Source: Trissonchulus latispiculum (Eukaryota > Nematoda > Enoplea > Enoplida > Ironidae). From it: a stretch of DNA of 64,000 nucleotides. Below, in pieces: positions 1 through 63,285 of the stretch. Position 1 is the first letter of the stretch. Each line of letters starts with the position of its first letter. Both the position numbers and the translations under genes were made by a program. The notes under the pieces are model-generated. The model made no database searches. It was not told where the DNA came from and saw only the letters and a list, made by a program, of their open reading frames with translations. The DNA lies in contig JASAND010004096.1 of assembly GCA_030248195.1 (NCBI GenBank), forward strand, positions 62,001 to 126,000. Reading direction: 5' to 3'.

Positions 1-166
1 GAAGTTATTTCCTTCTTTAGTTGAGTCGGAACGGAGCGCTGAAACCGACAGCACTTGCGGCAGGTTGTATGTTTGGCACACGAGGAAGTCTGCACTTCCT
101 TAAAGCCTAACTGCAATGATGTGCCATAATCTGCAGGTTTCAGGACTAGCATTTATTTTGTTTTAG

Positions 167-300
167 TCTTGATAACGCGTTTTGCGGTTAGCGCATGTTC
201 TAAGCTTATGGTTATAACAGCTTTGTTATATTGGCTGGTACCTATAAAACAACACGTGGATTGCACCGTGGACAATAGGATGAAATGTTTGCGAACTAAA
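167..300 (+). pseudogene. decayed copy of a C-type lectin exon (paralogue of the exon at 50996-51130)
   Basis: This segment aligns base by base with the CTLD exon at 50996-51130. It shares the ttttag acceptor, the 'FVILAGTY' codons, the AACACGTGGA block and the final GCGAACTAAA before a gt. The similarity runs a little into both flanking introns, from about 100 to 360. Read in the frame of the intact copy, it has several stop codons and one 1-nt deletion, so it is not coding. It is most simply a relic of a neighbouring kringle/CTLD-type DEG/ENaC paralogue that lay left of the window. None of the other exons of that gene were recognised in the first 6 kb. Confidence 0.7.
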
Positions 301-364
301 GTAACTATTTACTAAAATAAGCACTGAAATGAGCACTAAAATAGCACAATAAGCATAATGTTGT

Positions 365-685
<321 letters not shown>

Positions 686-1995: not shown

Positions 1996-4900
1996 TTTGA
2001 TTGAATTGGTTAAAATCATTTTAATTAAAATGGCACAATTCGGTATAAGTTATCCGTTATAAAATATCCCTGTGATTATTCTACATACAGAATTGTACAG
2101 CTATGCAAATTGCTATATTTTTCAGAAGACGTCAATAAAGCGTCCACACTAAGATTAGAAGAAACCGTTTCCAGCCACTCCAGAAGCAGAAAAAGATCTG
2201 AGATCCAAAAACATCTATCGGTAAGTAAGAATGAATATTGTATATCATATACACATACACGACTAGTATTCAAAGCCATACCCAACTACTAGAATTATAT
2301 ATTTTCTTTATTGTTAACAATCGCATGAAAAATAGAATATGAGTACACGCATGACAAATCAAATTTGAGAAAATACCTCCACCAAATTTTCGACATTTTA
2401 TCATTCTCTGTACAATCCACACCAAAAGATTTAAAAATAGCTTTAAAGTTCCATAACCCTTACACCGCCACAACAAAAACGCAATAACATATAGACCACA
2501 CGCACTAGTATACAGCAAACGAATGCAATTATATTAAGTATTAACTGGAATTTAATATATTAAATATTAAGTTTTTACTGGACTTTCTTGTACCTTTCGT
2601 TCAGGCCTATTGTGGTTTTAAAAATATAACAAACGAATAGGTTTGTACTAATGATGCAAGCATGATAGGAGCAGACCCATATCTACCATTACCCTTTAAA
2701 AGTACTTGACTTTCCACAGGCTTTATGTCTGTTAAGTAATTTAATTATGTATGTTAATATTTAACATGTTATTATGTTCATTAATCTTTATCTTGCTTTT
2801 ATGTTCCTTTTTGGACTACTGAGCTATATCTAATTGATACAAGTTCACACTGCTTTCAAGCGCCATCAACTACAGAACAGTAGCATTGCTAATATTGTCA
2901 AGCATTACGAACACAAAGACTACCGACACGTCGGAATTATCACTGAAATTAAGGCAGTCACAAGATTTGAGAAAATAGGGGCTAAGTTGGACAGGTGTAG
3001 TTTATGGCACGGCTCTGCATGCATTCAACAAAACTTCCACTCACAACGCGTAGGCTGCTCCAAGTGTCCAAGTGTAGCATGCGTGCGACAAGCGCATAAG
3101 CGCCATACACAATGGCAACCATTGCGACGCTGCATTAGCTACTGAATGCAAGCGATGCCGTGGTGTAGAGTACTTATGCAAATGAAGCTTGTCAGAGAAC
3201 TTATGATGTCTGGCTTTGATGTTGCAGCATATGCTATCGCAATTTCTAAAATCAAATGGCAGTTAGATTGCCTTGACTTAGAGTCCTCTTTTTTGTTGTG
3301 CAGCTAAGCTGTCTATGTTGAAGCTGAGCCACCCACACTGCTGCGCTATGCAACTTACGTCCAGGCCTCACAGCTGCACTGTGGGGATATATAACCAATT
3401 TATCCGCGCGATGCTCGACAAACAAACAGCAAATTATGTTCTGTGTTGCGTAAAGCAGTTAACTTAGGAAAAAGGAGAGCTTTGTAACCACAGTTCGTTA
3501 ACCGTTCGAGTTAACCTTAACCATTGTGCGCTTACCGACTGAACGTTCAAGAGGAAGCTCATACCATTTTGAGTTTTGGTCCGACAGCGTCAATTTATGA
3601 AGAATTTTTATCTTTCATATATTAAAATATTTTCATCATACCTAATTCTATCTTCAGGCAAAAGACTAGCAAGGAGTTCCACGATTATGTTCTAGTTAAG
3701 CTCATAGAAGCATAGGTAATAGGCAATAGGTAATCGAAATAGAAACTCAAAGGAAATCTAGCGAGTTTGTGTCATTAGCACTAATGCATGTCAAATTATA
3801 TCGCTATCTAAAGGGTTTTACAAATGCATGGGTTTTATAACTGCCAACGTAATTAAGGATTATTATTTTTCACTCAAACTTTCATTAACACAGCAGTGAT
3901 ATACTTTTATGGCAAACCTTGGAGGCCTCGTGCAATGACGTTAGTGGTGTGGGACGCTTAGGTCATTTTGGTGTTAGATACAATGGTACGTTGCTTATGG
4001 TCTAAATATTCTAACAAACAGGTTCTTGATTACCTGTGTTATGTCTGTATGCTAGTAGGTGAGATAATATGCATAAGATAAGATACATGTTGCATAAGAT
4101 ACATGCTACATAAAAGTTGGCATGGCATGCAGCCGAACTAATACATCTCGACTGGAGCGCTCTGCAGAATAATCAGATTCACCGCTACTGCTATATATAC
4201 AACATTATAAATAGATAACATTATAAATATATAACATTATACACTTATAAACATGCTTCGCAAATCGCATCGGCTCATAAAGCTTACTTATATAGCAAAC
4301 AAACAGTAATGCATAAAAGCTTACTTTAAGTCATAAGCCAATTCATAGCAAGTACGATCACCCCTTTCTCACCCATCAGGAGAGTGTGGATTTGAAACAA
4401 AGAAAATACCTTAACGAGTTTAAAGATTCGAAAACTGAATTTTAAATTCAAAAATGAAAATTAAACAACTTATCAAACCATTAGACACAAGAGTCTTTGC
4501 TAAGTTCAAAAACTGTCCTTGGTTTCATGCTTCATCATTAATTCATTCTTATGGGCCCGTCACGTTAAACTCGCTCTGATGGGTAGCCTAATTTCTGGAC
4601 TATTTCAGTTTTCTGTTCGTATATTTTGCGACTAATGTTTTGTAGTCACAGACTTTCGGGACAATTCCAAAAGATCCGGATTCAAAACTACTTTCCGTAC
4701 TCCGGACAGATTGTGACTATCTGAGAAGTAGGCACAAAATGTCGGAAGTTATGACTTGTTCATTTGTTTCTAAGCCTTGTTAGGAAATAATTAAAAACTT
4801 TGAATTTCAGACATAATCTTAAATTAAATTTATATACTGTATCTAATTTTAAGATTCTTTTAAATTACTGATAAACCACTTCACAGTAGTAGCGTTCTCA

Positions 4901-36491: not shown

Positions 36492-36732
36492 GCAAGCGCG
36501 ATAAAGTTTACATATAGTTTGAGATGGTCGTTTTGGAGAGTCTCGACCATTTAATACTGTTTAAAATAGAAATTACAATATTAATTTTAGTTTTCCAAAT
36601 TATGTGAGTTAAGTGAAAGTAACCTAATCGTAACGTCACCAAAATGACCATCTCAATATGCAGAATGTGCTTTGACTGCTACAGACAGACAACTACAGAC
36701 CTGTAGTTGTAATTATATGAAATAGGCCCCTG

Positions 36733-37589
36733 GTCAACTGGAAAGCAAGCATCGCGTAGAATGTAAGCATTTTGTAAGTATTAACGTAAGCACTGAGTAA
36801 GCCTTACGAACGTGGAATGTAAGTGTTTACGTATTGTGTAAACATTTGACTTGAAGTTGTTGACTAATATAACCCATTCCATGAAAAACCAGTTATCCCA
36901 GCGTCAGCTAAAGAGAAGCACATACTGACATAAACTGATAGCTAGAGTTATGCGTTAGGCGAAGCTGGAAGCTTATATATAGCTGCGTTATCTATATTGT
37001 AACTAAAGAGGGATGGCCGAGTGGGGAAAGGCGCTGTTTTTAAACTAGATTAACCCAAGTGGTGGTTTGATTCTCAGTTGAGTTTGAAACTTATAGTGGA
37101 ATGATCAGGCCTATCATGCATATTAAGCTTATTGTGGTATCGTTAGGCTATTGCATAATATGAAGGTTTTTAATGTGGGTTGACTAATAAACTTGATGCT
37201 TTTTTCATCTTGGATATGAAGTGGACCTGGAAGCTCTGTACGAACACTTAAGAAAGGTCTACACTAATGTGTGTTTAGAGCTGGAAATTTACAGTGGAAT
37301 TATTTGGAAAATGAAAGGTGGTAGCATTAGACTGTTTCACAATGAGAAATTTTTCATTGTTGGGTTAACTAATAAATCTGGTGGCTTTAGTCTTGTATCT
37401 GATGTATGTAATATGTGCTGTGCGTTGAAAAAATAAAGAAAAGAAAAAAGAAAAAACCGTAACGGTTGCCTAGCCTTCTGATGAGGCCCTGTGGCGGGGG
37501 CGAAACGGTTATAACATGAGGAGTCTAAAAAGACTGCGTAAATGTCCTGAGGGTAAATTCCTGGCCCAGAACCGGTATTTTTAGCTACT
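36733..37589. repeat. right arm of the large foldback
   Basis: Inverse of the left arm. Contains at about 37010-37085 a tRNA-like segment (ATGGCCGAGTGGGG, then TTTTTAAA, then GGTTTGATTCTC) resembling a tRNA-Leu/Ser-derived pol III promoter. Confidence 0.8.
37010..37085 (+). repeat. tRNA-Leu/Ser-like segment within the foldback arm
   Basis: An A-box-like GGCCGAGTGG and a B-box-like GGTTTGATTCT about 45 nt apart, with a possible TAA anticodon loop. The acceptor and anticodon stems do not close, so this is not a tRNA gene. A mirrored copy exists in the left arm (about 30845-30925). Confidence 0.5.
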
Positions 37590-45148: not shown

Positions 45149-45295
45149 TTACATCCTATTAAGATTGTCGCTGCTAATTCTTGCCAGAGAAAACTTGGAT
45201 TGTTGTTACTGCTGCTGACAATCACAACTCTTCTACTGTATATATCATTTGCTGTTTCTGCATATCGCACATTCCCTGTCTCAGTTAAAACTCAG
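45149..45295 (+). CDS. gene 2 exon: TM1
   Basis: Acceptor ttgcttttag, phase 0, 49 codons; donor CAG|gttgac. Starts LHPIKIVAANSCQRK, the equivalent of the pre-TM1 'HG' region with Pro in place of Gly, then TM1 GLLLLLLTITTLLLYISFAV and FPVSVKTQ. Confidence 0.8.
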
Positions 45296-48200
45296 GTTGA
45301 CACTTGGTCGGTTTCTTAAATTATTTGTAATGTATACCGTAACAGGTTTACTGTGCACCTGCACTGCACGGAAAGCGATTCTGTATGGAACGCTCCAGGC
45401 GACAAAACTCTGAACTTACACAGATCAGGAAACATTGACTGTTAACCATGTTTAACTATTTCCGATCTAATGCGTCCAGTAATCACCTGCTAAGTAGTCT
45501 TAAATTTTATTACTCTGTGTAGATGAACTACACCAGTATGTTTCCTGCAACGACATTCTGCAGTTTGAACCCTTATTGGAAAGCGGCACTAATGGAGACT
45601 GACATTGGAAAGAAATTAGTAAAGAAATTAGTGTGACAAGCGTCAAGCTCTTAGTTATTAGGCTTGGGACATCATCTTTACGATAACACCTGACCCCCCC
45701 CCCCCCACAAATTTAACCCATCACTTCAAAGAAATTTTAAGGCTATATTTGTGTTCCAAAGCTCAAAAACACAACTAGTCAGTTGGTTCAATGTACGTCT
45801 GTTGCGAACTTCAGCACACAAACATAGCATGCACTCATGCATGTTCTTTGAACTGATGGGTCTAATTAATGGGGGGAGGGGGTCAGCTGTTATCGTGCGG
45901 ATGATGCCCCAAGCCTGATAACAAAGAGCTTGTCGCTTGTCACGCCCTTACTTATTATGACTCTTGATTGTGGGAAGGGCAGCCGTTATTATGCAGATGT
46001 TGTTTTTCCTTGATAACTGAGTGTGACGCATGTCACACTCTTAGTTATTGTGTACTCTTGGTTTAAGGTAATTATAGGTGTTAATTGGTGGAATATTAGT
46101 TCGACAACACGAAGCAGTCAAGGCTCTCTAAATTTCTAATCCTTGTTACTCAGTGTATAACCTTAATTATAGATACTCTTCTATCAGCAAATGAATACCC
46201 TGATTGATTTATCATCTTCCTCAGACCCTGTTGACAGTGTGTCTTCAAACAATCCAACAAGTTAGTTTGAGATTTTATTAATGTATTATTTTTAGCAACT
46301 TGTTTTCACTAAAACCAGCAATTATTTGAATGTAAAGACAAAGCGAAAGACATATGTACATACTGTAGAATGTGAATCAAAAACTTTAACTCAGTAATAC
46401 ACTGATTCCCTGGTCAGACCACAGTTGATCCAACCTTGAAGAAGCTTGCATTCAAACGAATATATCAAAGAATTATAGCGGTACCTAAGAAACAAAGATT
46501 TTTCTTATAAGAAAATGTAATTGCTATTGCAGAATTTTGTTTCCGAATTTTAAGATACCTGTGTTGATGCGGCACATAAATGTTGGAAATCAATGCCGGA
46601 ATGCTTTGAAATACCCACCATCGACAGGCAACGCACGTTTTGGGTGAATTGTGCGTAAATAATGCACCGGATGCAAGTACAACATGGAGCCCCTCCTTCT
46701 GTTCAAATCCGGATAAACGAGCTGCACCATGGTGTTTCACTAATACCACTTTTGATTACTGCATCTTACCGTGTGAAAGAATTGATCGCTATAAAGGTAC
46801 ACAGACATATCAAAACTCATGCAAAAGGTTATAATTTTTAAGGGAGTCCTGTTCTGTTTTATATTTCGAGGCAAAATACAACGACAATTTTACGTATCTT
46901 GGCTACTTGCTGCATCGATGACTGTGGCTGTTGTGAAACTTTCGCAAATGTAGTTCCCTGTTGTGGTTTTTTTAATTTTTCGTTATTTAATTTTAAGTTT
47001 TCATTATTTTCAATACAACTTTCGAGGGTGGTTGATTGGTTTGTTGGTCGCTTATTGTCTTACTATCTAAAGGAATGTAAATAAATGTAAGTAGTGTTAA
47101 TAACAATGTCTTTGTTATCGTATAACATAACTAGCAAGCAACCTAGCCTTAACCTGGCCGATAGCAAGAGTACATAATAGATAAGAGTGTGACAACTGGC
47201 AAGCTTTCTATTTATCTCCTTCGTGTGCATGCTCTGTTCGCTAACGGCGGGAGACCCCTCAAACATGTACCTAGTGATCCCCCCACAAATGTGTACCCAA
47301 TACGCGTTTCTGTAAAACGCACTCGTCGTATCTTTGCGTGTTAAAGCTCGAAAACACAACGCCTGCGTGCGTTCAATTTGTGTCTGCTTCGTGATTTAGA
47401 ATGTAAACATAGCGGTCAACTTTCTTTGAAGTGAGCATAACATGTGTGGGGTGTCAGCCGTTAGCGAACAGAGTATGTAGCTGCAGGTGATAACACAGCT
47501 ATCACACTCTTATATTGATAGTCAGGCCGACATAGTGATTACATAACATAATATAACATAACAACAAGCTGAAATGGGACCTGCAGAACAGTAGATTTGT
47601 CTAAGCTGAGCTAATTGTCCACTGACTATTTTGATTAACACCAGACTCATGGATTCAATGACTCACCATACCTCACCACCATACAGCATATTAGATACGA
47701 TGTTTCTAAGAATATTCGTTAGCATACCATAATTTCCTCGTACTGTTACAATCAGTCACTAAACATTATCGTATCCAAGAATATTCCTAGGATTCTAGCC
47801 ATTTCTAAGAATTTTCCTCAGCTTCGTTATAATCATTTACGTTTTCTATAGTGCCGTAGAATGCCCCTCACCTCATATCCCTGACCTATTATGACTGCCG
47901 ACAACATTAATTTTATTCTTTTACGCGTCGGTGAATTCCGAAGGCATTTTTAGTTTTTACTTGTGGGCGAAGATTTCAGATTGTCCGACTACATTTCTTA
48001 CTTGGCAGCGAATTCCTGAACAATTGGCACTTTCCGGAAATGTCAGCGATTCCAATTTGTCTAAAGAAATTCCAAAAGGCTGTAATTAAGCAAAACTGTT
48101 TATGTAAAATTTCTGATTTATTGATGAAAATTCCAAAAGTTTGCTGAAGAAGCTAAGTCTTAAGTTTATGGTTGTCTACTGACTTGATTTTAGTACTTGT

Positions 48201-51200
48201 AACCAATGTAACACGTAAGCACTGTAATAAAGCTGCAGAATAACTCTGCTTTCTGATCTGGGGGAATTCTGATTCTCCTAAGCCTAGGAGCGCTCCTAAG
48301 TTCAGTTTAGGCGCTCACTGGGAAGAATCTGGGCCGCGTTGCAAAAGATCCTCCTAAGCATAGGAGCGCTCCTAAGTTAGGCTTAGGTGGGCACATAGTA
48401 GAATTGTGTTTTAAAAGATTCTCCTACGCTCGGAGTGCTAGCCACCACGTCTAACGTTTCCCCGAAGTTGCTTAAGCTTAGGGAAGCTGAAGTTAGTTTG
48501 GCTAAGTGTTGCTTAAGTTCAGAAAAGCTGGAGCTGGTTTAGCTAGTCTTAAGTGAAACCTTAAGAGAAGCCTCCAAGGAGGTACTTAGGACAGTCTTTC
48601 GCTAACAGGGGATATAAGTAAAGACATCCAATAGATGCCCTTGCATCATTTTACTCTCGGGTTTCATCTAGACATTACTGATTCTGACTTTGTCTTGGCG
48701 AACAAGCTTTCTCTTTATTCTTAGCTTACTACGCTAAATACTACACATACAACATAACCACTGAAGTAAATGAGAATAATACAGCATAAATGCATCCTCT
48801 GAATATTGCATAAATGCTGGCCTGCGCAACTGAATTGTTTCGGATCCTCGCTGTCCATACGGATGGGAAAGGGGAGATCGAGCTTGCTATAAAATGGTTT
48901 ACGATATACAGTAAGCTTTTTTAAATTAAATGTAGCACTGTTACTCTTTATTTCGCTAAAGTTTGTTAGCTGAGCTGGCTTATGGAGGAAGCAATAGCAA
49001 CTAATACCAGCACGAGAGTATTCCCAGGTTAGGTGTATTCTCGTTTTCATATTGGTTAAATTATAATTGTAATTGTAAGAGGTCGTTTAGTTCTGCAGTA
49101 AGTAGTCTAAGATGCACGATATAAAACAATCTTGCTATATAATGTCTTCTAACATAGCTCAGTGTAATTTAACCATGCTACAACTGCAGAGATCTTTGCG
49201 CACTCGTGCTCTTCACCTGGAGTTTCACCTGTTGGCGTGCATGCATACTGGGCTCTGAGAGCACTGCTGGCAATGCTCAACCTACACTTATTAATAATCG
49301 TATATAAGCATTACTCGTAAAATTATTATATTATTTACTGGCTAATAAAATTTCTGTACCTGACAAATTTCAAACGCTACCTTCAGCTGAAGAGATTTAA
49401 ACAAATTAATGATAATTTACGATGCTCTGTACACACATCTTTCAAATACCGGATGTGCGGCGTGAAATATATATTGACATGCATATTGACTGCGAAATCT
49501 CGGTAAATAAATTTGTAACTGATTTTTCCAAAAGATTTGTGCTGAGCTTACTGACTTCCTAACAAAATAGAATTAGTGGGCACTTCAAGGAATAGATAGA
49601 ATAGACACGACGCCAAATCGTGAACACATCGGTCCACTTTCGATTTAAAAAATGCATGCCGTTGCCTGTCAGCAGTTGATGGAATCCGAACGTCTTGACG
49701 CAAAGATAATAACCGAACAAGACAAATTATGGATGCTTTCTCAACAACCTTCGATCAGCAAATCATACTAAAATAATTAAGTCATGCTCTATAACAAAAT
49801 TTCCAAATACGGAAGGTTAAAATTTCCCAAGGATAAGATCTTAGACAGGAGCATGGAGTTAATTTCATTTGTAAAATTTATTATTGTTATACGCATCGTT
49901 GAAATGTAGCAATGGTAAAATATAACAACACACTTTCTTGGTATTTGGTTTTTTAGTCAAAACAATCCACGATCTGGCGAGTACATGTGCCAATCCATGC
50001 ATCCAAGAGCACACCTTCCAGGATTTGTCGATTCACAACAACTTGACGACTTTGTGCAGAATTTTGTGTACGTTAAGAGGAATTTAATAGGTTGATTCGT
50101 ATATCTGTTGATCGAAACAAATACTCAGTTAAGTTGCTGTATATCTTGGGGAACTGTGTCATCTGGAGAACAACTGACAAAAGAAATCTACTCAGCTCTG
50201 AAGAACCAAGCAGCATGATAAACATGGATTAAGCTATTAGTGCGTTCTTGCAATGCGATATATTAAGCATTGATCATTCCGCAACATTAACAAACATAGA
50301 TCATCCATCTTAGTGAGTATAGTATATCTCAGTATAATTATACTAATGTTAAGCTAAAGTTTAAGGTTTATAATTCACAAGCTAGTTTTCAATAATAGTC
50401 TTTATGCGATATGCGTATTTAGGTTAGGGAGCAATTAACCACAAGCATTTCATCTTGAAGTAAAGTATAACCAAACAACATTATAACCTTACCTCTAATT
50501 ATACACTATTCTTGGTAGTGGTAGATACATAACAGTATCTGTACAACAATAAATTCAAGAAATTGCACAAGAAGGGTTAACCGTGCCACCGAATCAACCT
50601 GCAAATGGAAGAGCATGTATCTGTTGACTCAAAAATAAAGGTCCATTATCCTTGACGTTACTACAAGAAAAGTTGGCTTCAAACTGATTTTTAAGCGGGC
50701 AGGATTGCTTCTCTGCAGCGGACGTTGAACGTTGACACATATTGTAAGGTACATCTGTTAAAAGCCAACCAACACCAAAACGCAATCGGAAATTTATCAA
50801 TGTGGAAAACACAACACATTCTTTTCATTCATTTTGTTTTCTCTTATAATCTAAAAAGTAACCAAGCCCTGAAAATGGCATCATCTACGGTGAATGAGCG
50901 AATGCTGAAATGAGCATTATGTGCTTAGAGAACACTTAACTCTCACAGATGTGCCATTATAGATTATGATTTGCCGTTTTAACAACTATTTCTAGTTTTG
51001 ATAAAGCATTTTATGGTCAGCGCATGTTGCAAGCTCATGGTTACAATAGATTTGTCATATTGGCTGGGACTTACAAAAATAACACGTGGACTGTTCCGTG
51101 GACAAGAGGAGCATATACGTGCGAACTAAAGTAAGTATTTACGGAAGCTAACAATTTGGGTACTAAATTGGTGCAGTGATATAATGGTGGTATACTAAAA

Positions 51201-54200
51201 CATGTGATCTCTGAGCAATTTCAGATATTATCAGACATTGGTTGATTTCCACTCGAGCTAATGCTAAGTTAGGTGATAGTAGTCGTTGCATGTTCTCTTT
51301 ATTATTTATCATACTAAAACAAGCAGTTTGTACATCCCCCAAATCATTGCAGTATTAAATCCAACCTCATGGCGATCTACTATCAACCTATCTGCTTAGG
51401 TATGGAAGAGAGGGCATGACTGATAGCACATTCTGCGAAGACGATGATTGTTGCATCATGGTAAACCTGTATAGCATTGAACCGACTTTAACGTATCAAT
51501 CCTGTTCCCGGGGCAAAACCGCGATTTGTCAAATCCATGACTCTATTGAAGGAACTTGCAAAACGAAAGGTCATATGTCGTGATATCTTCTCAGATTTAT
51601 AGATTAGTAGGTACCAGTTGCATATCTAGGTATTACTTGTTTCCTTCTCAGTCAACCAGGTGGAAGAATGGCCGACCGCCATGATATACCAAACGGCTAA
51701 AATATCGATATTAACGAGTCAGCAGTCAACAAAGCAGAAATTGAAGACGCAGAAAATTGTTCCCTAAGTAGAGTGGGAGAAAACCTCTCACAGTAAAAGT
51801 CTTGATTTATATGCGCCAATGTTTTGTTCAGGAGGAAGCTTTTAAAATTATTTTATATAGGGGAGTAAATACTGGTATGTATATTTATTCTAATTAGTTG
51901 TCGCCGAAAGCCGGTTATATAATGCAATGTCTCAATGAATCATCTTCTGACTAAAAACCCGTTTTTATGTCGAATAGAGCCGGAATGCCTAAAGCAAGAT
52001 TTCTTGTGTCTGTGTATTGTTGAATTTTTCCTCCGAGGAAAATCATCTTCAACGCAGTGCTACGAAAATGCGTTTTGATAACCTGTGTTGTCTACTAATA
52101 AAGTGTACGTCTACTATTTATAAATCGCCAAAATTTCTGCCATTTCGCTGTCTTTGGTGGCCAGCAGTCTCTGAGACTGGCGAAGTTTTGCACATGTATA
52201 TAAGACATCGGAACAGCAAATGTACTTAAAAAACGACTAGAGATTGGATAACGGCAAAGGGACAAAAATGAGGGCGTTCTCAATTTATTACCCATTTTTC
52301 GAACACCAAGCTTCACAAATAAAACTGGTTTTTTCACGAATCCACTCACTCACATGTTATTCTTAACAATGCAAGAGTACATTTTCGCTGTTTCTACTAA
52401 TTCACCGGAGACTGTGTGTTTCTCAGACAATAACAACCGAAATTAAGTAAAAGCTGAACGATCAAGTTTCTGAATTTGTCAGATAATCAGTCCCCGGCCG
52501 TTTCAAACTTGACATTTTCTTTATCTAAATATTGCTAATAGCATCAGCCCGCTTCTATTCATTTTTATATGGCCCGATTATGCCCGATCGGCCCACCCAA
52601 CTTGTCAAAGTGCATGTTTGCACTGCGCCAGCTTTTCTCAAAAATATGCAGCCACCTGGACTACTGACAGTCCAAAACTGCGACAAACACCTTGTGACCC
52701 CTTAAGTGCTGGAACCTAATTTGCATATAGCATTGAAAGCAAAAAATCTTGTTTCGCTGTCTTTGTTTTAAAGATAGGAAGACAGGACATCTAAAAGGAA
52801 AATGACTTAATACATGTAAAAGATTCAATTTACCTACAGTAGCCGAAATTCTTATTCATATCTTGGCAGAGGCTAAGTTTCCAAGCTTTTCAACCCATCT
52901 AATAATTGATAAAGTGGTAGCGTCTTTGTTATTTACGTTCTTAACATTTTCATTTATACCAACGACTCGCGAAACTCGATAAAATGAGTATAATGTTAGC
53001 GAGAACTATATGATTTTGGCATCAAAATGTGAAAGGTGCCTAAATGTAAGACTACTTATGTTATCTAATATCAAACTTATCGTCTTCACAAGAAAATACA
53101 CTGTAGTTACAAGGAGATTGAGTGGATATCTTACATTAAGATAGGGTCGGATCCTGGGGGGGGCACAGCGGATATCATACATTAAGATAGGGTCCGGGGG
53201 GGGCTTGTACCAAGAAAATTCTAGGGGGCTTGTACCTAGAACCAAACGTTTTGAGTGGGGCATGTACCATAAGCACACATTAACGTTAATAGTATTATAA
53301 ATTCAAAATTTTTAAAGAAATGGAAGAAAACTTCCAATGCCAATTCTTAGAAAAAAAATTCAAAATTTTGATCGATTTTTTGGAAAACATAGCAAATTTT
53401 AGTAAACAATTTTTTGGAATTTTGCTGCGAAAACCTATTTTTTCCGGCCATTTCTGCTTATTTTCCGGCCATTTCTGCTTACCCCTTGCCCAATTTTTCC
53501 GTTCTCCTTGCCCTTGACGGCGATACGGCTTTTACCTTGTCCGGGTTGGGGCTTGGACGATGTGTGTTAACCTGTGGTGGATATCATCGAACGCACCTAG
53601 ATTCTACATTCCCCTTGAGGTGTAAAATAGCATATGACACTGCGTATGACTGCAAATGTCGAAAAACTTAACAGGTAAGAAACAATGTCGGTCCTAACTG
53701 GTCTGACCAATAAGGAAACTTTGTTCTTGGGTTGGGTATTTGGGTATTTGGATACGTTGGGTATTTTTGACTGCTAACAAAAGCTGTTTCAAACATCTGT
53801 TTTGAAGATAAACATATGAGAAGAGTATTGTTGAGAATAAGATAAATTAAGTGTTGCAACGTAATCTACGCCGTAACAATTTTAAGTTAACTATGGGGAT
53901 CTGGCGATCCTGAGGAAGAGTCAACTTGTAGTTTGTGGCTAGGTAGCTTGGATACTTAACAGACCATCTGCAGTCACTTATCCTGTAGATGCCTTTTTAG
54001 GTGAATACAGCTAAGCATTAAGCTTTTACAGTACTTTATTATAATCAAAGTCTTCTGTTGCAGGTAGTCATTGGTTCTATGACTTCAGTAAAGCTTTACC
54101 GTCCTTGTCTTCTCGAATGAAAGCATTGACAATAAGCGAAAGCTATGATCATATGCTTAAGGGATTACTACGATTATTTCAAGAAACAGCCTGGTCGACG

Positions 54201-57200
54201 TTCGAGGCTTATTTCGAGTCAGTGGTGAGTTTTTCGAATTCTGCTTTCTTCTGTAAAGGTATCTGCTTCCCGTGTAACGCTGCTTATTATACTGTGGAAT
54301 ATAAACTTGATTTTATTCAAAATTATACAAAACTGAGTGCTAACTAACAATCAAACAATCAAACTAAATTATACTCTCGTGTAGCGGCCAAGATTGCTAA
54401 ATATTTGCTCAAAGACAAACGTACAAATAGCAACAATTATTGGACACGAAAGCATGAGAACCCAACTTCGATAAGGACCTACCCATCCAAATTCGACTAC
54501 TCCCCAACCAAAACTTGGCACAGCTGCCCTAAACTCTTCGCAAACATTGCTTATATAGTTAAGAAACTTGTGCTGTAGCTAACCCAAGAAAGAAATTAGA
54601 TTGACAATTCACGAATGAATTCGAAATAAGCAATTTTGAATTTATCGAGTATTTACTAACTTAGAAGCGCTGTAGCGCCAGGTTTTGAAAACTGCTAAGC
54701 TGTTGCGCAGCCTAAAACTGTCGCCCAATAGATAATATGCCACAATTAATAAAACAGGGTTCAGTCTAATTTAACCAGCAAAACTCCTTTATTTCGCCTG
54801 CATATTGAATACATAGAAATGAAAGAATAATCCGAATATACGGTCGAATAATTCCAATATTCGTTCATCAAATTATTCGTTATCTATTCGCGAACAGCAG
54901 ACGACTATTTTAACATATTTGTATTGGAGAATGGCGAATTATATGCAAACAGGTCTACATTCGTGCCATTTTTAATAGTTATGCTGCCCGACTGAAACTG
55001 AAACAAGAAATCCTCACGTAACAGGTTTGAAACGGAATCTGAAACTGAAAAAATAAAGACCGCCTGAAACATCAATACTTGAAAGTTAGCTAGCTAAGCC
55101 ATCGGCCAGTCAGCTAGCTGCGCACAGGAGCTATGCATTTAGTGGTTACACAAAACATCAATAGCTTGAATATGTAGATTTTAGCAGAAATAATGGGAAT
55201 ATCTTCACAGTATGTAGTTTCACGAGTGCCACTAGTGCTACCATAATATTTTGTACTGTTTTCGTTATACAAGTGTCCTCTAGTTCTTTGGTGCCTCGAG
55301 TCGCACACTCAGAGCTTGTCACACGGTGAATACACCAAACGCCGTGCTACTATGCATGCGTGTACATCTGTTATGCACCAGTTTTAGAAATATCTGATAC
55401 AATACCAGAAGCGAGGGAGAGCGGCCGTACTTCGAGAATCTGTAATAAAATGGACTTTTGCCAGGAACACGATCAGACACATAATATCAGAGTTGGAAGA
55501 TGAACCTTTGGATACAGGATTTAGCGAGCATACTCTCAACCTGTTTATTAAGCAATGTCAAATCATGTCTTCTCAATGCGACCGGTAAATACGATACGTG
55601 GGTTGAGTCCATACGCTAGCCGTAAAAACCGGGGTGAACCCACTTTTGGGTTCACCCCTAAGATTTTCGCGTTAGCTAACCGCGTTGCTCAAGCCAGTGT
55701 TATCAAACATTTTGGGGTTGACTTATCTAAACCCACATTAATTTGGTTTTAACTCAAACGAGATTATCAACTCAACTCTGTTATTTCAACCCAGGTTTTC
55801 CATTTTGATTACACCGGGTCAACGTTTTCAACCCAATCTAGGTTTCAACCCAGGTTGAGATGCTTGATAACATCGGCCCCAGGAGCGTTGTGACTCGGAA
55901 AAATGGTGGGTCAGTGGCTCGGGTCGGGTCGCGGGCAGGGCCGGCGTTTTACACATTAGATGGCAATTCTTTAACAAATTTCGATGGAGCGTGAAGTCTG
56001 CATACCAACATTCTTCCACGGATTACAGCGGCAAATTGCTTAATTGACATAATTGACGCAAGAATTCAACTGTAATGCTACTCATGTGGGCTGAATGTCG
56101 AAATAAGGTGCTAACTAATTGAGTATAATGTTTAGCTACGTCTATGAAGAGATGTAGACACTTTTCCATATTAGTTGATGAATGTTGAAGTTGCAAAACG
56201 GAATAAAACATTATTCACTTAATGACGTACAAGTAGGCAAAGTATACATGGTACAGATATAAATGTAAAAGGGGTTTCCTTCGCAGAAAAGGATGCAATG
56301 CATTTCCTTCGTTTAACTTACGATTCCAGTACATATCCAAATAAAGCCTTTATCCAAGAATTAAGCCAGAGGAGGTGGGTAACGCTGACCAGCGATCGTT
56401 AGCTGTTAGCGAAACATGGATGTATAATGAGAAATATGCAAAAAAATTGAAATCAATTACAAAGCAGATCGAGCCGGTTTTAGCGACGGCTGCTGTTCGG
56501 AAAACAGGAGATTGGGCCTGGGCCGGCCTCGCTTTTCTCGCCGCCCTATAGACCACATCGGCCGTTGGCCGACCCTGCAATCAAAAATGTCTTTTCAGCC
56601 TTAAACTTTCATTTTTTCAACAGCTGTACTCTTTACAACGTAGTCATCAGTGTATAAGGTTTGACGAAATAGTTCTGACAGGCCAATGTGGACTGAGCGA
56701 TTGCAAAATATATGTGATTCTGCGTCTGTAAGGATCGACCTCTATGTCGCCCCAAAAAATCAACCTTGCTTGGTTTTTTCTATTCTCCAATGTGTAAAAA
56801 TAGTAGTCAGAGATGCTGACGTAATTCCAAGCTCTGGCAATAGTTCCTCTGTTGAGTATGAGTCAAAGAAATTGACTCCATTGGTGCTGGTTTGGCCTCT
56901 TTGAATAGAAAATAAGAAAATATTTCTGTAGCATGTGTTAGTTTATTATCCGCCTAAATATTAGCCTCCAAATTTTGCAGTGCTCATGTGGATACATTAG
57001 ACACATTGACGTGCTAAGTTTGAAAGAATTTTGTCAAGGTTTCCGGATTCTGACCTCTTTTATGAACCAAATGCAGACTCTGTCTTGGGCAGCCAGCTTC
57101 GTTGTTTTTGCCTACATCGATGCAGATTCGGGGGGAGGGTAAACATGGTATTCACAATATCTGTCTAGGATAGCGCCAACTTGGTGCAAAAAAACCAGCT

Positions 57201-60200
57201 TTCACTGTTACAAGGAATCTGTATACATTTCAGCATAAAGTGGTATATACAGCTTCAGGGGTTTTGGTAGCTGCCTTTGCAATCATTCAGAAAATGGCTA
57301 GAATTAGGAAATCCGAAGACTGCAGCAACGAGATGAGTAAATGTGCTAACAGCACTTAACTAAAAGCGTCCTAGCTTCGAGTTTTATTGCAAAATCCGCC
57401 ATATCCTAGTTTTGTCGATTCAGACACACAGCTTAGAAAGTGATCGGGTATATCTATTAAATGACAACAGATACGCTAAAATTTTGTGGCGGAATTCCAC
57501 CTCAAATATCAACATTCGGGAAACGCCAAATCCGAAAACTTTCATTTTTATCATGATTTTACCAACCCCTCCCCGGTTTCAGCGATCACAAATTCATAAC
57601 AAATGAAGTTTCTCGAATTTGGCTACACTTTCCCTAGATGTTGATATTAGATTTAAAATTACGCACACAAACATTTAGCGGCGTGTCCATTGCTTTTCGG
57701 TAAATATTTCCGATCCAATGCGTCCAAGCTATGCGTCTATACCGACTTAACCAGGATATGTTGGATTTTGAAATACAATTCGAACATAGCACATTTATAA
57801 ACTAACTGGTGTTAGGGCATTACTTGGATTTTGATTATTTTGAATACCATGTTTGCTTTTTCCCCGAATCTGCACCGATGCATGCAAAAAGTACGAAACG
57901 TGCTGTCCTGTATTAGATACATACATGACGTCAGAATCTGCTAGCTTTGACAAAATTCCATCAAACTCAGCACGTCAATGTGTCTAATATATCCACATGA
58001 GCACTGCAAAATTTGGAAGTCAATATTTAGGCGGATAATAAACTAACACATGCTACAGAAATATTTACTCATCTTCTATTCGGAGAGACCAAACCAGCAC
58101 CAATGGGGTCAACTTCTTTGACTCATATCTCGAGCTAGGAACCACTGTCTGGTTTGGGATTTGCGTTATCGTGCCTCCGTGACTTCTATGTTTACATGTG
58201 TGAATGTGGGGAAACCTAGAGCAATCTAAACCTAAAGCAACCTAAAGGATATGATAGTAAAACTACACTGGGAAACTAATAAACGTGGATTCGGATGGTG
58301 TAGTGGTTAATACACGTTGCCGTTATAACACGAGGTCAATTTTTGTAGATAAAGTTATTGAAATGTGATTGATATTTGATAGAGTACAATTATAAAGTTA
58401 TAATATAACACGGGTTGACATGACACCCAAATTAATTTCAACACTTAGGTAACACTTCTGCAAACATAGTATTCTCATTCCTTCCTTTTCAACTCACACG
58501 CAAGTGAAAAGCAAGCTTATTATTAAGTGATGGTTTGAATTTCTATTTTCAACAACAGAAACAGTAATAACGGGTGAAGCAAAAATACTGAATGTGGCGT
58601 TTGAGAGGTTCCCAGTAGTTTAGCTAAGCTGAACTGCTTCAGAATAAAACTTGAAATCGCTTCAATATTACCAGCACCGCTGGGCATGATTTATGATATA
58701 ATGTACGTTTTGTGATATTAGATGAAAACGGCATTGCTTAAAGTAGCAATACTATCATTTTTACAAGGGACTCTGTGTTCAGTTAAGTTGTCAACTATTT
58801 TTGATCAAAAATTTAATGAGTGCATTTTTGGAATGTTGCTTTAATAATAGAAAAGACATGTCATACTTCATGGATCCAAATTATGGAAACTGCGTAACTA
58901 TTTACAGCAAATCAGCTCACGTGTTGCCTGGAGGAATAAGCGGTATGTTATTAACATGTTTCAAGCTAAAAGTAGGAAGCTGTATTATAGCATTTGTTTC
59001 TCATACAGACAGCAATGATTGTTACCCCTATGACATCTAGTCCAAATATTGTAAATTTTATGCAAATTTTAGCAAACATTTATTTGCAATAAAAATGTTT
59101 GTCAAAACTACTCCCGAAAAATAATCACTTGCTGTACTTTGCTGAAACAAGTAAATTTGCCAATTTTTGCTCATTTGGGGTAGATCCCTATAATCTGACC
59201 CAGATCTCCCAGAATCTAAACACAGCGCTAATGTGAATAATCCATGTCTATGCATATTTGCTACAGTGTTTGTCTTAAGGCTTGCTGGTGAAACTAAGCA
59301 CTCCAGATGACATCAGCTTATTCGGAGGGGCTTTCAAAAGCAGCATGGCTGCTGTTATTCACCATGAAAAGAGAAGACCATTTCCACTGCTGGAGGGATA
59401 CGCCATTCCAAAGGGCTACGCCACAAACCTTCAAACTTCTTTGGTATGCCGCACATGCTACATTTGGACGTATCATATGCACATAATAAATCACCTAAAA
59501 TAGTAAACTTCGTCGAATAGGCAAAGCAATTTCCAATTTAAGCAGACAATGAATACATAGCTTCATTTCAGCTATACAGTTTCACTTCTTTTCACTTTTA
59601 CGCTTTGAGCTTTGGACAAACAAAGCTCAACTTTTAGAGAGAGCCAATTGTTTCCTTCCACTAGAACGCTCCTGAATAGTTTCCCTAACGTGGATGTCCT
59701 CCGCATAACAAACTCATTCTCCGGCGTATAGTAGAAGCTACATATGTGCGACGTGCGTCACCTTTTTTGTGCAATTTTGACATTTGGATTTTGTCGATTT
59801 TTAGCCCTATGAAATCTTTACTGAGTGAAACTAACATAGTCAAAAGACATCATATTATTTTTAGAGCCTTATTTGTTATGCAACAGTCTGTAGAATTTTT
59901 TAAATATTAAAAATAAACGTTGACGCAGGGCTGCGTCCGCAGGACGGTGTTCACAGGACTATCGTAATGTGGGTAATAGCGGCCCCGCTATCACCCCTTT
60001 TCCAAGCCCCTTTCAATCTTTAGCGTTCGTAGTTTTCCCCCAAAACTCCCCCAAATTTCCCTTAAATTTTATGTTGACATAATTATTGGGAAGCCCGACG
60101 ATTTAGTATTGTTTTGTGCATAAAAATGCCCTTTAAATAATGTGCAGTCCTAATTTTATGCTCATATTTCAAAAATCGTACAAAACCTTTATATTTCCTA

Positions 60201-63200
60201 TTTGCAAGCGTAAATTTAACATTGTAATTATGTTGGCTTAACAAAGATAGACCCTCCCATTATCAACGCATAACAATCCTCTCCTTTCGCCACTAGTTAG
60301 TCAGTTGGGAATTTTTCATCGGTAGCGTACGAGCATTCCATCTGTCGGGGGCCCCTCTCGTGAACTTTCTTTGTGCTTGTAAGTTTCTCTTTATTATTTC
60401 TTTTTCAAAATTCTACTACTCCTACCTTTTCTAATTTCGCCCTTAACTTTTACTAATTCACCTTTTCACTTTCACTAAAATTCGTAACACACCCCACCCC
60501 CTTTTCCCTCCCTTCTCACGGGGTTGGTGCCGTCCCTCTGGGTCTATTTTTGTTAGCCGACACCCCCTCCCCGTATCTGGTAACCTTGCTCCCTGCCTCG
60601 AATTTACTGGTTTCCCCCTCCTATTTATTTATTAGTCCCCCTGTAATTTTGTGTTATTGTTTTGTCGGATAGCCCGATAATTTTGTTGTCCCCCTCTAGG
60701 TAGCCCAGACGGGAATTTTCTGTCATATTTTCCCCTGTTTTCGACTTTTAACTTGCTCAGTTGTCCTTTACCTTATTTAACCTATTTTTGTTAACTGTAT
60801 TCCCAGAATTGATCTCATAACTAGGTAGGTAGAGCTCTGGGAATAGCCCTGAGTTTGGTTATAATTGAGCTTAGTTTTTCAGTTTCGTATCTTCCCTAAA
60901 CTCCGTCTAGCGCCCCGTTGGCGTCCCCCAAAATTATCTGTTCCCACTTGGCAAGGCAGCGTCGGTGGATTGAGAGCCGCCTGGACTACAAGATCTCCAC
61001 CCGCAGTCGACGGTTAGCGCCCATTGCGCCAGTCCTAGGTAGTGACGTATGAGCTCTGCGGATTAATTCCCGGCTCACCCATAACATTGTGGCTTTAAGG
61101 ACTGTGTTCTAATCTGCATCACTCGGGTCCAAAAGTGCGTCACGTAGAGTCTTAAAGCGCGTCACCTGTAATTTTTTACTAAAAACAGTGCATACATTAG
61201 AAAATTCACGTCGAAAATCTAAATCACCCTTTGTAATTCAGTCTTAGCAAGTCTAAACAACAACAACAACAACAGCAACAACCTTATTCAGCTGTTCAGA
61301 TGTCTCCAACCGAAATGCCTCCAAGATTTTCATATTTCCGAATTGCAGTGAAAGATTTTAAGATTTTAAATCACCACAACCCCACATTTCTTTACAACTT
61401 GTTAGAATTTTAGTTTTACAGATTCTAAAATTCATAGTTTCCAGTAGAACACAAAGAAATATCAAGCTTTTGTCTTTTCATTAGTATTTTAGCCTTATCG
61501 AGAAACACAGTGACGCAATTTAGGGGTCCGACATAAATTCTGAAATAAAATCTAATAGATATAAAAGCCTTGTCATCTAAATAATCGTTTGATCATAATA
61601 TAGAGCACAAGTTGTGGATTAAAACAATAGCTTAAACAACAAAATGCTCCATCACAGCACTTTTTGTCAAAAAGCTAAAACTGGAACATGAGTGAAAATT
61701 CTTGAACATGCACTGTAATGCTTACCTATCATACTTGGCAGATCAAAAGTCTCGCTTTGGTCATGTGACAGCTACAATTTTTATATCGTGGCATAGAGCT
61801 CGTCTCGAAGAATAAAGGCCGGCTCACGGGCTGTCGCTTGTCCCGTGTCGCGTAGGATTTGTAGTACGTCGAATGTCGCTTGTCGCAGTGACTGATGTGT
61901 TCACAGGCTGATGTCCTGTCGCAAGAAATTTCAGTGCAACCCTTGCCAAAGCCAACATTTTATAGGCTAGAGGCATGCGACACGCGACAAAAGTTAAAAG
62001 ATTTTTAACTCCTTACGACACGCGACAATTTGTCGCACGACACTTTTGTCGCAACAAGCTATGAAGTCAAAGCCAAATTTTAGCTAAAACCAATTTTTAT
62101 AGAATAATTTTTAACATACTTTGAACTGAATTCAACAATGCAATGTTTTCGTGGCTGTGGAGTATAGTGCGCCCGCAGTGAATTCCAAAATACATTTTAA
62201 TTCACTAAAAACAAAAACCTTTGGTGTCGTTCTTAACCATTTATACTAACTTTATTAACATTTATACTTAACCGTTTGTCGTTTCGTGATATAAAAAGAT
62301 CTGTTTCGCTTTTTTGTGCCAGTTTGTGAACTGGTTTGAATTAACCGAGTAAACCAACCCAAAAAGTAGTATATTTTAAAGTCTGTTAATTTATTAGTTG
62401 GTAAACTGATGTGGAGATTAGAAAAGGGGGGTTTCTATATTAAATGATGTTAACTTGACAAACAGTCAATGCGGTCGATCTATTATTCTTGTGAACATGA
62501 CAAATGTACCGTCGCTTATACTTCAAGATTACAGTAGGTACTTACTTGAATTTGCGGGGTAGAGTCGTTCATGCTAAATACCACGTTATTCTTCAAAGTG
62601 TTGTCAAATGGGGTTTTGTCAGTAAGCCTGTGCCTTTCTTCTACCTTTCTGTTGTTCGGAATTTTGATTGATCGTTTTCGTCAAATTCTGAACTTGATAC
62701 TTTCTTCAATTGCTGTTCAAATAAAAGAAAAGTAATCGGGTATGTTCAGTCTATGGTTTAGGTAATCAGGACTCAAGTCAAGGTGACACTTTAGTGACTT
62801 TAGTAACAAGGACTTTAGGACTCGTAGTCAGCCATAGACACGTCTAGCATTTCTGTAAATCTGTACTAATCTCAGTCAGATGTTGCTTAAACGTAGTCAG
62901 GCTCTACACTAATGAAAGAAAAAACTAAACTAAGACTGTCACTACAGCACCTCAGACCCGCAAAATGCTGGCCTGATGTGTAGATCGAACAATACAACCT
63001 TTGGCAAACTAGGCCGACGCTCTACCGATTGAGCAACCCAGGCACTTAATCGAACCAAGCTCAAGTTTGAATTCGTTCCCAAAATGTAGTGACATTTTAA
63101 AAGAGGGCCCAACCAAGTAAGCATCGAACGTTCAGAGTTTTGAAAATCTTAATAAAGCAAATGCTAATGTAATAAAATAAGTTTAGAAAGCGGAATACAG

Positions 63201-63285
63201 GAAAGGTCATCCGTATGGTACTTGTACAAATGATTTTGAAGATGAAACTGATACCCTTTATGGAAAATTGGTCTATAACCTGAAC
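45149..63285 (+). CDS. DEG/ENaC-family channel with inserted kringle and C-type lectin domains, gene 2 (partial, possibly damaged)
   Basis: Exon chain: 45149-45295 (TM1), 45523-45618 (post-TM1), 46173-46260 (tentative), 46555-46796 (kringle), about 48785-48910, 49957-50067, 50996-51130 and 51400-51569 (CTLD), 51652-51717 (tentative), 54064-54224, 58783-58942, 59280-59443 and 63187-63285 (extracellular palm to thumb start). The thumb, TM2 and C-terminus lie beyond 64000. Most junctions are phase-compatible; those into the kringle exon and from it to the CTLD are not resolved. The channel exons match gene 1 in order and motif. A kringle and a lectin fold in the extracellular loop would suggest ligand or matrix binding; this is inference. 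A 1-nt shift near 46636 and a TGA at 48831 break the frame within the inserted domains only. Confidence 0.65.
45523..45618 (+). CDS. gene 2 exon: post-TM1 FPAVTICN-type motif
   Basis: Acceptor gtgtag, phase 0, 32 codons; donor TTA|gtaaag. Encodes MNYTSMFPATTFCSLNPYWK, the hallmark DEG/ENaC strand following TM1. Confidence 0.82.
46173..46260 (+). CDS. gene 2, tentative short exon
   Basis: Acceptor aattatag; frame ILFYQQMNTLIDLSSSSDPV; possible donor A|gttagt (phase 1). If used, it can join directly to the palm exon at 54064. No family motif, so the call rests on splice signals and phase. Confidence 0.4.
46555..46796 (+). CDS. gene 2 kringle exon, with apparent frameshift
   Basis: The second part reads GELC...FCSNPDKRAAPWCFTN...FDYCILPC, the C2-C6 pattern of a kringle (NPD, PWC, and C-x-x-x-C spacing). 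The first kringle cysteine (GNQCRNALKYPPSTGNARFG) lies just upstream but one frame off; the two frames meet at the run 'cgttttggg' near 46636. So either 1 nt is inserted, the assembly is wrong, or the exon really starts after an acceptor at 46628 and lacks C1. Donor AAAG|gtacac is phase 1. Confidence 0.72.
46797..48784 (+). other. intron between kringle and CTLD, no further exon recognised
   Basis: Contains imperfect inverted and direct repeats. Related 'gtgacgcatgtcacactcttatt' and 'ctgttcgctaacggc' blocks occur at about 42010, 45900 and 47230-47510. At 48280-48560 there are repeated CCTAAG..TAGGAGCGCTCCTAAG palindromes. Confidence 0.4.
48785..48910 (+). CDS. gene 2 CTLD exon 1, with in-frame TGA
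   Basis: The end of this exon reads CPYGWERGDRACYKMVYDI, the classic start of a C-type lectin-like domain, with a gtaagc donor in phase 2 that fits the next exon. Upstream in the same frame is a TGA at 48831-48833 and no usable acceptor lies between, so the exon is either mutated or its 5' part is misread. The 5' boundary (after 'atacag') is tentative. Confidence 0.65.
49957..50067 (+). CDS. gene 2 CTLD exon 2
   Basis: Acceptor gttttttag; phases 2 to 2; donor GT|gtacgt. Encodes YMCQSMHP and AHLPGFVDSQQLDDFVQNF, the 'C...AHLxxxxSxxExxFVxN' helix region of a CTLD. Confidence 0.8.
50996..51130 (+). CDS. gene 2 CTLD exon 3
   Basis: Acceptor actatttctag, donor AA|gtaagt, phases 2 to 2, no stop. 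Encodes NRFVILAGTYKNNTWTVPWT, the CTLD 'WIGL...W.W' strand region with Val replacing the usual Trp. A decayed duplicate lies at 167-300. Confidence 0.8.
51400..51569 (+). CDS. gene 2 CTLD exon 4
   Basis: Acceptor atctgcttag; one base completes Lys; ends in phase 1 before gtcata. Encodes STFCEDDDCCIMVNLYS and SCSRGKTAICQI, matching the terminal CTLD disulfide pattern (C...C.....ICE). The usual WND calcium-site triplet is not evident, so carbohydrate binding is uncertain. Confidence 0.8.
51652..51717 (+). CDS. gene 2, tentative linker exon
   Basis: Very strong acceptor (cttgtttccttctcag), phase 1 in; frame VNQVEEWPTAMIYQTAKISI. A weak donor (A|gtcagc) would give phase 1 out and join the exon at 54064. 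Without that donor the frame runs to a stop near 51770, and the CTLD chain would end here as a separate protein. Confidence 0.4.
51718..53129 (+). other. intronic stretch, no exon recognised
   Basis: A 70-codon frame at 52017-52229 and others nearby lack motifs or matching phases. Confidence 0.35.
53130..53576. mobile_element. hAT-like MITE, copy 5, with duplicated left end
   Basis: Flanked by GTGGATAT (53122-53129 and 53577-53584). Starts CTTACATTAAGATAGGGTC and ends TTAACCTGTG. The left terminal block recurs internally at about 53168-53200 ('atatcatacattaagatagggtcc'), so the element has a partial self-insertion or duplication. Sequence-related to 23695-24130. Confidence 0.7.
54064..54224 (+). 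CDS. gene 2 extracellular exon (finger/palm)
   Basis: Acceptor tctgttgcag, donor GTG|gtgagt, phase 1 in and 0 out, 53 codons open. Encodes HWFYDFSKALPSLSSRM...YDHMLKGLLRLFQETAW. It occupies the place of the helical finger in gene 1 (MDSLLQLQNRSLLDVLF). Assigned by position and phase; the motif is weak. Confidence 0.6.
54225..56839 (+). other. intronic stretch with a small TIR element
   Basis: About 55690-55880 is bracketed by GCCAGTGTTATCAA and TTGATAACATCGGC with several 'caaccc(a)gg' repeats inside, which resembles a roughly 190-bp MITE; no target duplication was resolved. GTTCACCCC/GGGGTGAAC hairpin at about 55630-55660. No exon seen. Confidence 0.4.
56840..58143. mobile_element. foldback element inside a gene 2 intron (1.3 kb)
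   Basis: Arms about 56840-57139 and 57859-58143 are inverted copies, with mirrored blocks 'gactcatat/atatgagtc', 'caaaccagcaccaatgg', 'ttaggcggataataaac', 'cacattgacgtgct' and 'ccgaatctgca.cgatg'. The 720-bp centre has no ORF. No target duplication was established. Confidence 0.7.
58292..58338 (+). repeat. tRNA-like 5' half
   Basis: GGATGGTGTAGTGGTTAATA followed by ACGTTGCCGTTATAACACGAGGTC resembles the D-arm to anticodon part of a tRNA of the GTGTAGTGG type. The T arm is missing, so it is a tRNA-derived fragment at best. Confidence 0.35.
58783..58942 (+). CDS. gene 2 extracellular exon with the YGNC strand
   Basis: Acceptor ctctgtgttcag in phase 0, donor G|gtatgt in phase 1. Encodes FLECCFNNRKDMSYFMDPNY then GNCVTIYS and LPGGISG: the family 'CxFNxxxC..F...YGNCYTFNS...GPxxGL' pattern. 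One of the clearest DEG/ENaC exons here. Confidence 0.88.
59280..59443 (+). CDS. gene 2 extracellular exon, palm strands
   Basis: Acceptor gtttgtcttaag; two bases complete Gly; donor TTG|gtatgc in phase 0. Encodes LLVKLSTPDD, MAAVIHHEKRRPFPLLEGYA and IPKGYATNLQTSL, equivalent to the family 'GLxLxL...VxIHxxxxxPxPxxxGxxVPPGTxT' run. It matches the start of the gene 1 exon 14281-14794. Confidence 0.88.
59444..59929 (+). other. intronic stretch, nothing recognised
   Basis: AT-rich; no exon or repeat identified. Confidence 0.4.
59930..61170. other. pyrimidine-rich 1.2-kb island
   Basis: Strongly C/T-rich on the + strand, with many CCCC and CCTCC runs and a tail with 'cagcgtcggtggattgagagccgcc'. 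The composition differs sharply from both flanks, suggesting an inserted element such as an untranslated end or LTR of a retroelement. I found no long terminal repeats, ORF or target duplication. Confidence 0.4.
61171..62936. other. intronic stretch with TGTCGC/GCGACA repeats
   Basis: About 61820-62060 is dense in TGTCGC and its inverse GCGACA (for example 'gacacgcgacaa'), probably a degraded MITE with inverted termini. The rest has no recognised feature. Confidence 0.4.
62937..63095 (-). repeat. tRNA-derived SINE-like element, copy 2
   Basis: Same layout as 5674-5828: TGTCACTACAG end, minus-strand tRNA-like core with TCAATCGGTAGAGC, then 'ttgaattcgttccca' and ATGTAGTGACA. More diverged in the T arm than copy 1. 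It lies about 90 bp upstream of a gene 2 exon. Confidence 0.8.
63187..63285 (+). CDS. gene 2 exon: start of the thumb (PYGxC)
   Basis: Acceptor ataagtttag, phase 0, 33 codons; donor AAC|gtaagt. Encodes KAEYRKGHPYGTCTNDFEDE then TLYGKLVYNLN, the family 'K.....L..PYG.CT......LY....' segment at the entry to the cysteine-rich thumb. The remaining exons lie beyond the window. Confidence 0.85.

Follow-up and report, generated by a model that had tools for sequence, protein, structure and literature searches.

A DEG/ENaC channel gene with additional exons in its second intron

Within the window, by which we mean the whole stretch of 64,000 nucleotides of Trissonchulus latispiculum DNA analyzed here, a DEG/ENaC channel gene is represented by six intact plus-strand exons at 45149-63285 that run from the first transmembrane segment (TM1) to the start of the thumb (Table 1). 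When joined, these exons encode 276 amino acids that match the Pfam ASC profile (E 9.9e-20, 71.4 bits against a cut-off of 23.6) as well as ENaC and FaNaC chains in the PDB, and the channel gene proposed in a preliminary description of this DNA is real. As in known DEG/ENaC channels (ENaC, ASIC, and FaNaC), the ASC match extends over TM1, the post-TM1 stretch, finger, palm, and thumb start, and YGNC, VIHH, and PYGTC occupy the corresponding positions. The post-TM1 motif (FPxxTxC) and the palm and thumb cysteines (YGNC and PYGTC) are present. DEG/ENaC channels are expected to carry an HG gating motif before TM1; exon 1 as read has HP instead, and its true start is uncertain, since an upstream exon was not identified. 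The locus also differs from known family members in that its second intron may hold foreign exons and in that TM2 was not seen: no part of the gene beyond exon 6, including TM2 with the GxS selectivity filter, was found before the end of the window. Whole-frame Pfam scans in which stops are read as X are insensitive, and one such scan missed the real ASC exons. DEG/ENaC channels work as cation-conducting trimers, and from this family knowledge the encoded protein would be expected to do the same. The intron between channel exons 3 and 4 contains an inverted pair of about 300 bases (56854-57159 and 57836-58131, 83% identical).

Between channel exons 2 and 3 lie one kringle-like exon and four exons resembling a C-type lectin domain (CTLD). 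As the preliminary description had noted, channel, kringle-like, and CTLD-like exons share one strand, here the plus strand. The insert sits between the post-TM1 and finger exons with compatible phases.

Table 1. Positions of the exons and associated features in the window.
Feature	Positions	Strand	Sequence or motif	Splice phases and remarks
Channel exon 1	45149..45295	+	TM1 (LHPIKIVAANSCQRKLGLLLLLLTITTLLLYISFAVSAYRTFPVSVKTQ)	donor phase 0
Channel exon 2	45523..45618	+	post-TM1 motif FPATTFCSLNP	donor 45618 weak, phase 0; alternatives 45630, 45632
Foldback repeat	45633..45943	+		self-inverted, 74% identity; starts 15 bases past 45618
Kringle C-terminal-half exon	46628..46796	+	ATHVLGELCVNNAPDASTTWSPSFCSNPDKRAAPWCFTNTTFDYCILPCERIDRYK	acceptor phase 0, donor phase 1
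In-frame TGA upstream of CTLD exon A	48831..48833	+		7 bases before the CGG site
CTLD exon A	48844..48910	+	DPRCPYGWERGDRACYKMVYDI	start 48844 inferred; donor phase 2
CTLD exon B	49957..50067	+	QNNPRSGEYMCQSMHPRAHLPGFVDSQQLDDFVQNF	both ends phase 2
CTLD exon D	50996..51130	+	FDKAFYGQRMLQAHGYNRFVILAGTYKNNTWTVPWTRGAYTCEL	both ends phase 2
CTLD exon E	51400..51569	+	YGREGMTDSTFCEDDDCCIMVNLYSIEPTLTYQSCSRGKTAICQIHDSIEGTCKTK	acceptor phase 2, donor phase 1
Channel exon 3	54064..54224	+	finger (SHWFYDFSKALPSL...)	acceptor phase 1, donor phase 0
Channel exon 4	58783..58942	+	...ECCFNNRKDMSYFMDPNYGNC...; YGNC	acceptor phase 0, donor phase 1
Channel exon 5	59280..59443	+	palm (GLLVKLSTPDD...AAVIHHEKRRPFPLLEGYAIPKGYATNLQTSL); VIHH...IPKG	acceptor phase 1, donor phase 0
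Channel exon 6	63187..63285	+	thumb start (HPYGTCTNDFEDETD...); HPYGTC	both ends phase 0
Dead copy of CTLD exon D	162..301	+		80% identical over 153 bases including flanks; 3 stops, 1-base deletion
Dead copy of CTLD exon A	4327..4398	-		75.5% identical over 94 bases including flanks

The insert holds half of a kringle and a CTLD-like unit

The kringle signature of the first inserted exon (SFCSNPDKRAAPWCFTNTTFDYCILPC) is beyond chance, with a Pfam Kringle match at E 1e-5 for the exon alone and 7e-4 in a frame scan. The match is confined to profile positions 44-76 of 79, and its 26.2 bits lie below the curated cut-off of 34.3. A small profile built from five human kringles likewise picks out this C-terminal half (positions 40-76, E 6e-7). 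Single-kringle PDB chains match the exon down to E 4.3e-4, and plasminogen and HGF are among the matches; the plasminogen value (E 3.7e-15) is a sum over five kringles, none of which falls singly below 0.04. With the kringles of these two proteins the exon shares the C-terminal half (FCSNPD...PWCFT...YC...C), and it differs from them in that no N-terminal half was found: nothing else scored above 3.6 bits with the small profile among 225 ORF segments of at least 12 amino acids on the plus strand at 44-52 kb. The three-disulfide domain is thus incomplete, and a full kringle of about 80 residues and six cysteines was not found. Of the kringle claimed in the preliminary description, the C-terminal half holds and the N-terminal half does not. 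We also tried a frame-1 stretch (46533-46645), which requires a frame shift, as the missing half, and the Pfam score fell from 26.2 to 21.2 bits. Were the half-kringle exon spliced in, the channel would gain 56 residues, five of them cysteines, after the post-TM1 strand and before the finger.

The four CTLD exons (A, B, D, and E) are joined by three inner junctions that are all in phase 2. This part of the preliminary description stands, but exon A lacks an acceptor and the family match is weak. The best PDB chain for the assembled CTLD is of the snaclec type (E 7e-4, residues 4-61 only), one of the ten PDB matches listed lies below E 0.001, and neither Lectin_C nor any other Pfam family matches the assembled string. 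Compared with its nearest solved relatives, the snake-venom snaclec chains, the unit has the same CPYGW...CY start and the same spacing over the first 60 residues; it differs in giving no Lectin_C match and in a first exon without a splice acceptor. It also differs in that EPN, QPD, and WND are absent from the joined CTLD (161 aa), so that sugar binding is not indicated. Many CTLDs lack these three motifs, and their absence speaks to sugar binding and not to CTLD membership. The sugar-gated channel suggested earlier is accordingly not borne out, and nothing in the sequence hints at a sugar or matrix ligand as the gating stimulus. If exon E is left unspliced, its frame runs to a TGA at 51581-51583, 17 residues past its AIC cysteine, and not to a stop near 51770 as first described. 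AATAAA hexamers, which are common in AT-rich DNA, occur at 52097 and 52318.

CTLD exon A lacks a splice acceptor

The expected acceptor site of exon A (48841-48843) reads CGG instead of ending in AG, and no AG occurs between the upstream in-frame TGA and CPYGW. The nearest AG before CPYGW gives an exon start at 48785, from which the CTLD frame runs into this TGA and to which the kringle exon joins out of frame. If exon A is skipped, neither the kringle exon nor the exon 2 donor at 45618 continues in frame; by phase arithmetic alone, exon B could still be joined to the weak donor at 45632. Taken together, the missing acceptor and the broken frame after skipping mean that the CTLD is not joinable in frame to the kringle exon as the sequence stands. 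A channel protein containing both a kringle and a CTLD, the central claim of the preliminary description, is not established by this sequence: the CTLD has no in-frame route from the kringle exon, and the first half of the kringle is missing. All 11 exons form one open frame of 493 amino acids only if exon A is taken from 48844, and no single spliceable open frame unites channel, kringle, and CTLD.

A sister copy of exon A on the minus strand has CAA at the site where the main exon has CGG. This pair suggests, from two sequences, that a CAG acceptor may have been lost. In such an ancestor the CAG would serve as an acceptor in phase 1, in agreement with the donor phase of the kringle exon.

Dead copies suggest that the insert was once coding

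Copies of exons A and D occur near the start of the window. In the exon A copy the conserved tryptophan codon is TGA. The exon D copy lies at the window edge, with its left side outside view. No channel match was found beside the copies by tblastn (positions 1-6480) below E 0.14, and the match at that value adjoins a (TTG)n repeat. No stop occurs in 217 codons of the main kringle and CTLD exons, whereas the copies carry four in 65 codons, together with a frame shift, and the main unit thus looks constrained until recently. This comparison is one-sided, since openness was itself the basis on which the main exons were delimited. Between main exons and copies, 22 of 67 third codon positions are changed, against 24 of 140 first and second positions (one-sided Fisher test, p 0.01, with some doubt about the 3' end of the exon A alignment). 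This third-position excess indicates that main exons and copies were coding for much of their history. In global alignment, the flanks of exon D match at 60 of 113 and at 38 of 64 columns, values near the level of gapped alignment of unrelated DNA, compared with about 80% inside the exon.

Several further candidates were set aside. A kringle-like tblastn match at 3080-3166 (E 0.018; protein score 50, shuffles at most 40) has DNA similarity not above that of shuffles. Kringle-exon DNA matches at 5034-5082 (minus strand) and at 33239-33439 (plus strand) look like chance or repeat, the first of them less surely because it would precede the exon A copy in the right order. An exon-E-like stretch at 1863-1819 (minus strand) has approximately the expected spacing from the exon A copy; it is weak (score 47, shuffles at most 39) and is not counted. 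A long, uninterrupted (TTG)n microsatellite at 365-685 follows shortly after the exon D copy.

Phases and splice sites around the insert

Both boundary junctions of the insert agree in phase, for which we estimate a chance of about 1 in 9. When exon 2 (donor 45618, phase 0) is joined to the strongest exon 3 acceptor (54064, phase 1), the reading frame is lost; a join through the half-kringle exon alone keeps it, and exon E also fits exon 3. The kringle acceptor (46628) is among the best 1.2% of the 1042 AGs in the region, and the acceptor of exon 3 (54064) is among the best 0.9%. A direct in-frame join of exons 2 and 3 would use either the acceptor at 54051 (top 55% of the 1042 AGs) or the pair 45632/54068 (donor in the top 28% of 1058 GTs, acceptor in the top 20% of AGs). 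These scores use consensus weights and are rough, and some accepted sites also score poorly (channel exon 6 acceptor, top 88%; CTLD exon D acceptor, top 47%). All exon 2 donors are weak, and the intron is crowded with repeats, including a foldback immediately downstream whose relatives lie at 40.0-42.1 kb and 47.2-47.5 kb. With weak donors and this foldback so close, the original donor may have been altered, which makes the phase argument fragile. When exon 2 is joined straight to exon 3, 251 channel residues match 267 positions of the ASC profile (22-288), and thus no large piece of the channel is missing between these exons.

Interpretation of the insert

We favor, with a probability of roughly 0.55, an ordinary DEG/ENaC gene whose second intron holds a recently broken, 5'-truncated kringle-CTLD fragment on the same strand. 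In its present form the lectin part is not spliceable as a unit into the channel and is most likely a decaying gene fragment. The fragment would derive from a separate kringle-CTLD gene family, its arrival or inactivation would be recent, and the mature channel mRNA would skip it through the acceptor at 54051, the pair 45632/54068, or a small exon that we did not find. Such a remnant explains why half of the kringle is missing, why exon A has no acceptor, and why there are dead copies, and it agrees with the ASC coverage obtained without the insert and with the repeat-crowded intron. Against it stand the out-of-frame join of exons 2 and 3 at their strongest sites, the in-frame kringle bridge, the stop-free insert exons, and the third-position excess.

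The phase agreement and the preservation of the exons are instead accounted for by a fusion, in which the channel encoded, or still encodes, kringle-like and CTLD modules inserted after the post-TM1 strand and before the finger; we regard this as a possible yet clearly less probable explanation. Its case is built on the 493-residue frame with matching boundary phases (exon A taken from 48844), the half-kringle exon bridging exons 2 and 3 in frame with high-ranking acceptors (46628 and 54064), stop-free insert exons, and the failure to find an upstream kringle half that would make the insert its own gene. Failure of the exon A acceptor might recently have cost the channel its CTLD, so that the mRNA retains at most the half-kringle exon. 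Alternatively, the CGG might reflect an error in the sequence, belong to a null allele, or act as one of the rare acceptors that lack AG. This reading is opposed by the acceptorless exon A with its upstream in-frame TGA, by a kringle that is only half there, and by two CTLD exon copies lacking channel matches alongside (one at the window edge, its left side unseen). Protein searches also returned no protein of such architecture, although they missed even plain DEG/ENaC relatives. It is possible, though rather unlikely, that the channel mRNA carries at least the half-kringle exon in frame, with the CTLD as well in an unmutated allele or close relative, as an adhesion-type insert in a DEG/ENaC channel. 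It is improbable that the insert is a functioning kringle-CTLD gene in its own right, nested within the intron and ending at the exon E TGA: a stop 17 residues past the AIC cysteine is a natural end for a CTLD protein, the AATAAA hexamers lie downstream, and the exons are well preserved, but the first kringle half was not found at 44-52 kb, exon A has no acceptor, and inspection by eye from channel exon 2 to 46628 showed no signal-peptide exon. That the exons are neither kringle nor CTLD and resemble them by chance is very improbable and largely refuted by the scores. The lack of a Lectin_C match, a single listed PDB match below E 0.001 for the CTLD, and a kringle score under the Pfam cut-off would fit chance, but the Pfam Kringle E-value of 1e-5, the kringle chains in the PDB (single-kringle chains to 4.3e-4; plasminogen as a five-kringle sum), and the snaclec-type match at 7e-4 speak against it, and both the sister copies and the excess of third-position changes suggest that these exons once coded for protein. 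Our weights are judgements and not computed values, and a small share, slightly below that of a nested gene, is kept for other explanations.

If the insert is a remnant, the locus is a caution that agreement of strand and phase alone can give a truncated fragment inside an intron the look of a part of the host gene; alternatively, it could be a case caught soon after the loss of a module. If it is fused, DEG/ENaC loops can take up whole adhesion modules, suggesting a channel tethered to the matrix or to a partner protein. No protein combining kringle, CTLD, and ASC was found in protein, viral-contig, or genome-contig searches (two of the collections are viral or prokaryotic by description), and this says little because the protein set did not yield a match for the plain channel string either. 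Literature titles pairing ENaC, ASIC, or amiloride-sensitive sodium channel with kringle yielded no such channel within the library and terms searched, nor did titles pairing ENaC with C-type lectin domain among the matches listed.

Other features of the window

The window looks like animal DNA, with introns, a PIF/Harbinger-type transposase, and many repeats. A putative second, divergent DEG/ENaC-like gene was seen by eye on the plus strand (6482-6823, 13536-14063, and 14139-14798), with TM1 and LKIPDFILCPYMRYT and, later, a YQECIMQC...CTECNF cysteine pattern; it gave no Pfam ASC match, joined or per ORF, and its last part no PDB match. An intact plus-strand transposase ORF of 364 amino acids (35397-36491; Pfam DDE_Tnp_4, E 1.3e-33) is flanked by inverted repeats that are 96.7% identical (32882-33150 and 36730-36998), which we take to be a PIF/Harbinger element. 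A tRNA-Ser-like sequence on the minus strand (5706-5779) lies inside a stretch (5674-5828) that matches 62937-63094 with 83.5% identity, possibly a tRNA-derived SINE. Finally, a GIY-YIG fragment at 8110-8448 (plus strand, Pfam E 2.4e-5) and a chromodomain fragment at 27627-27908 (minus strand, E 5.6e-5, just under the curated cut-off) are likely retroelement remains.
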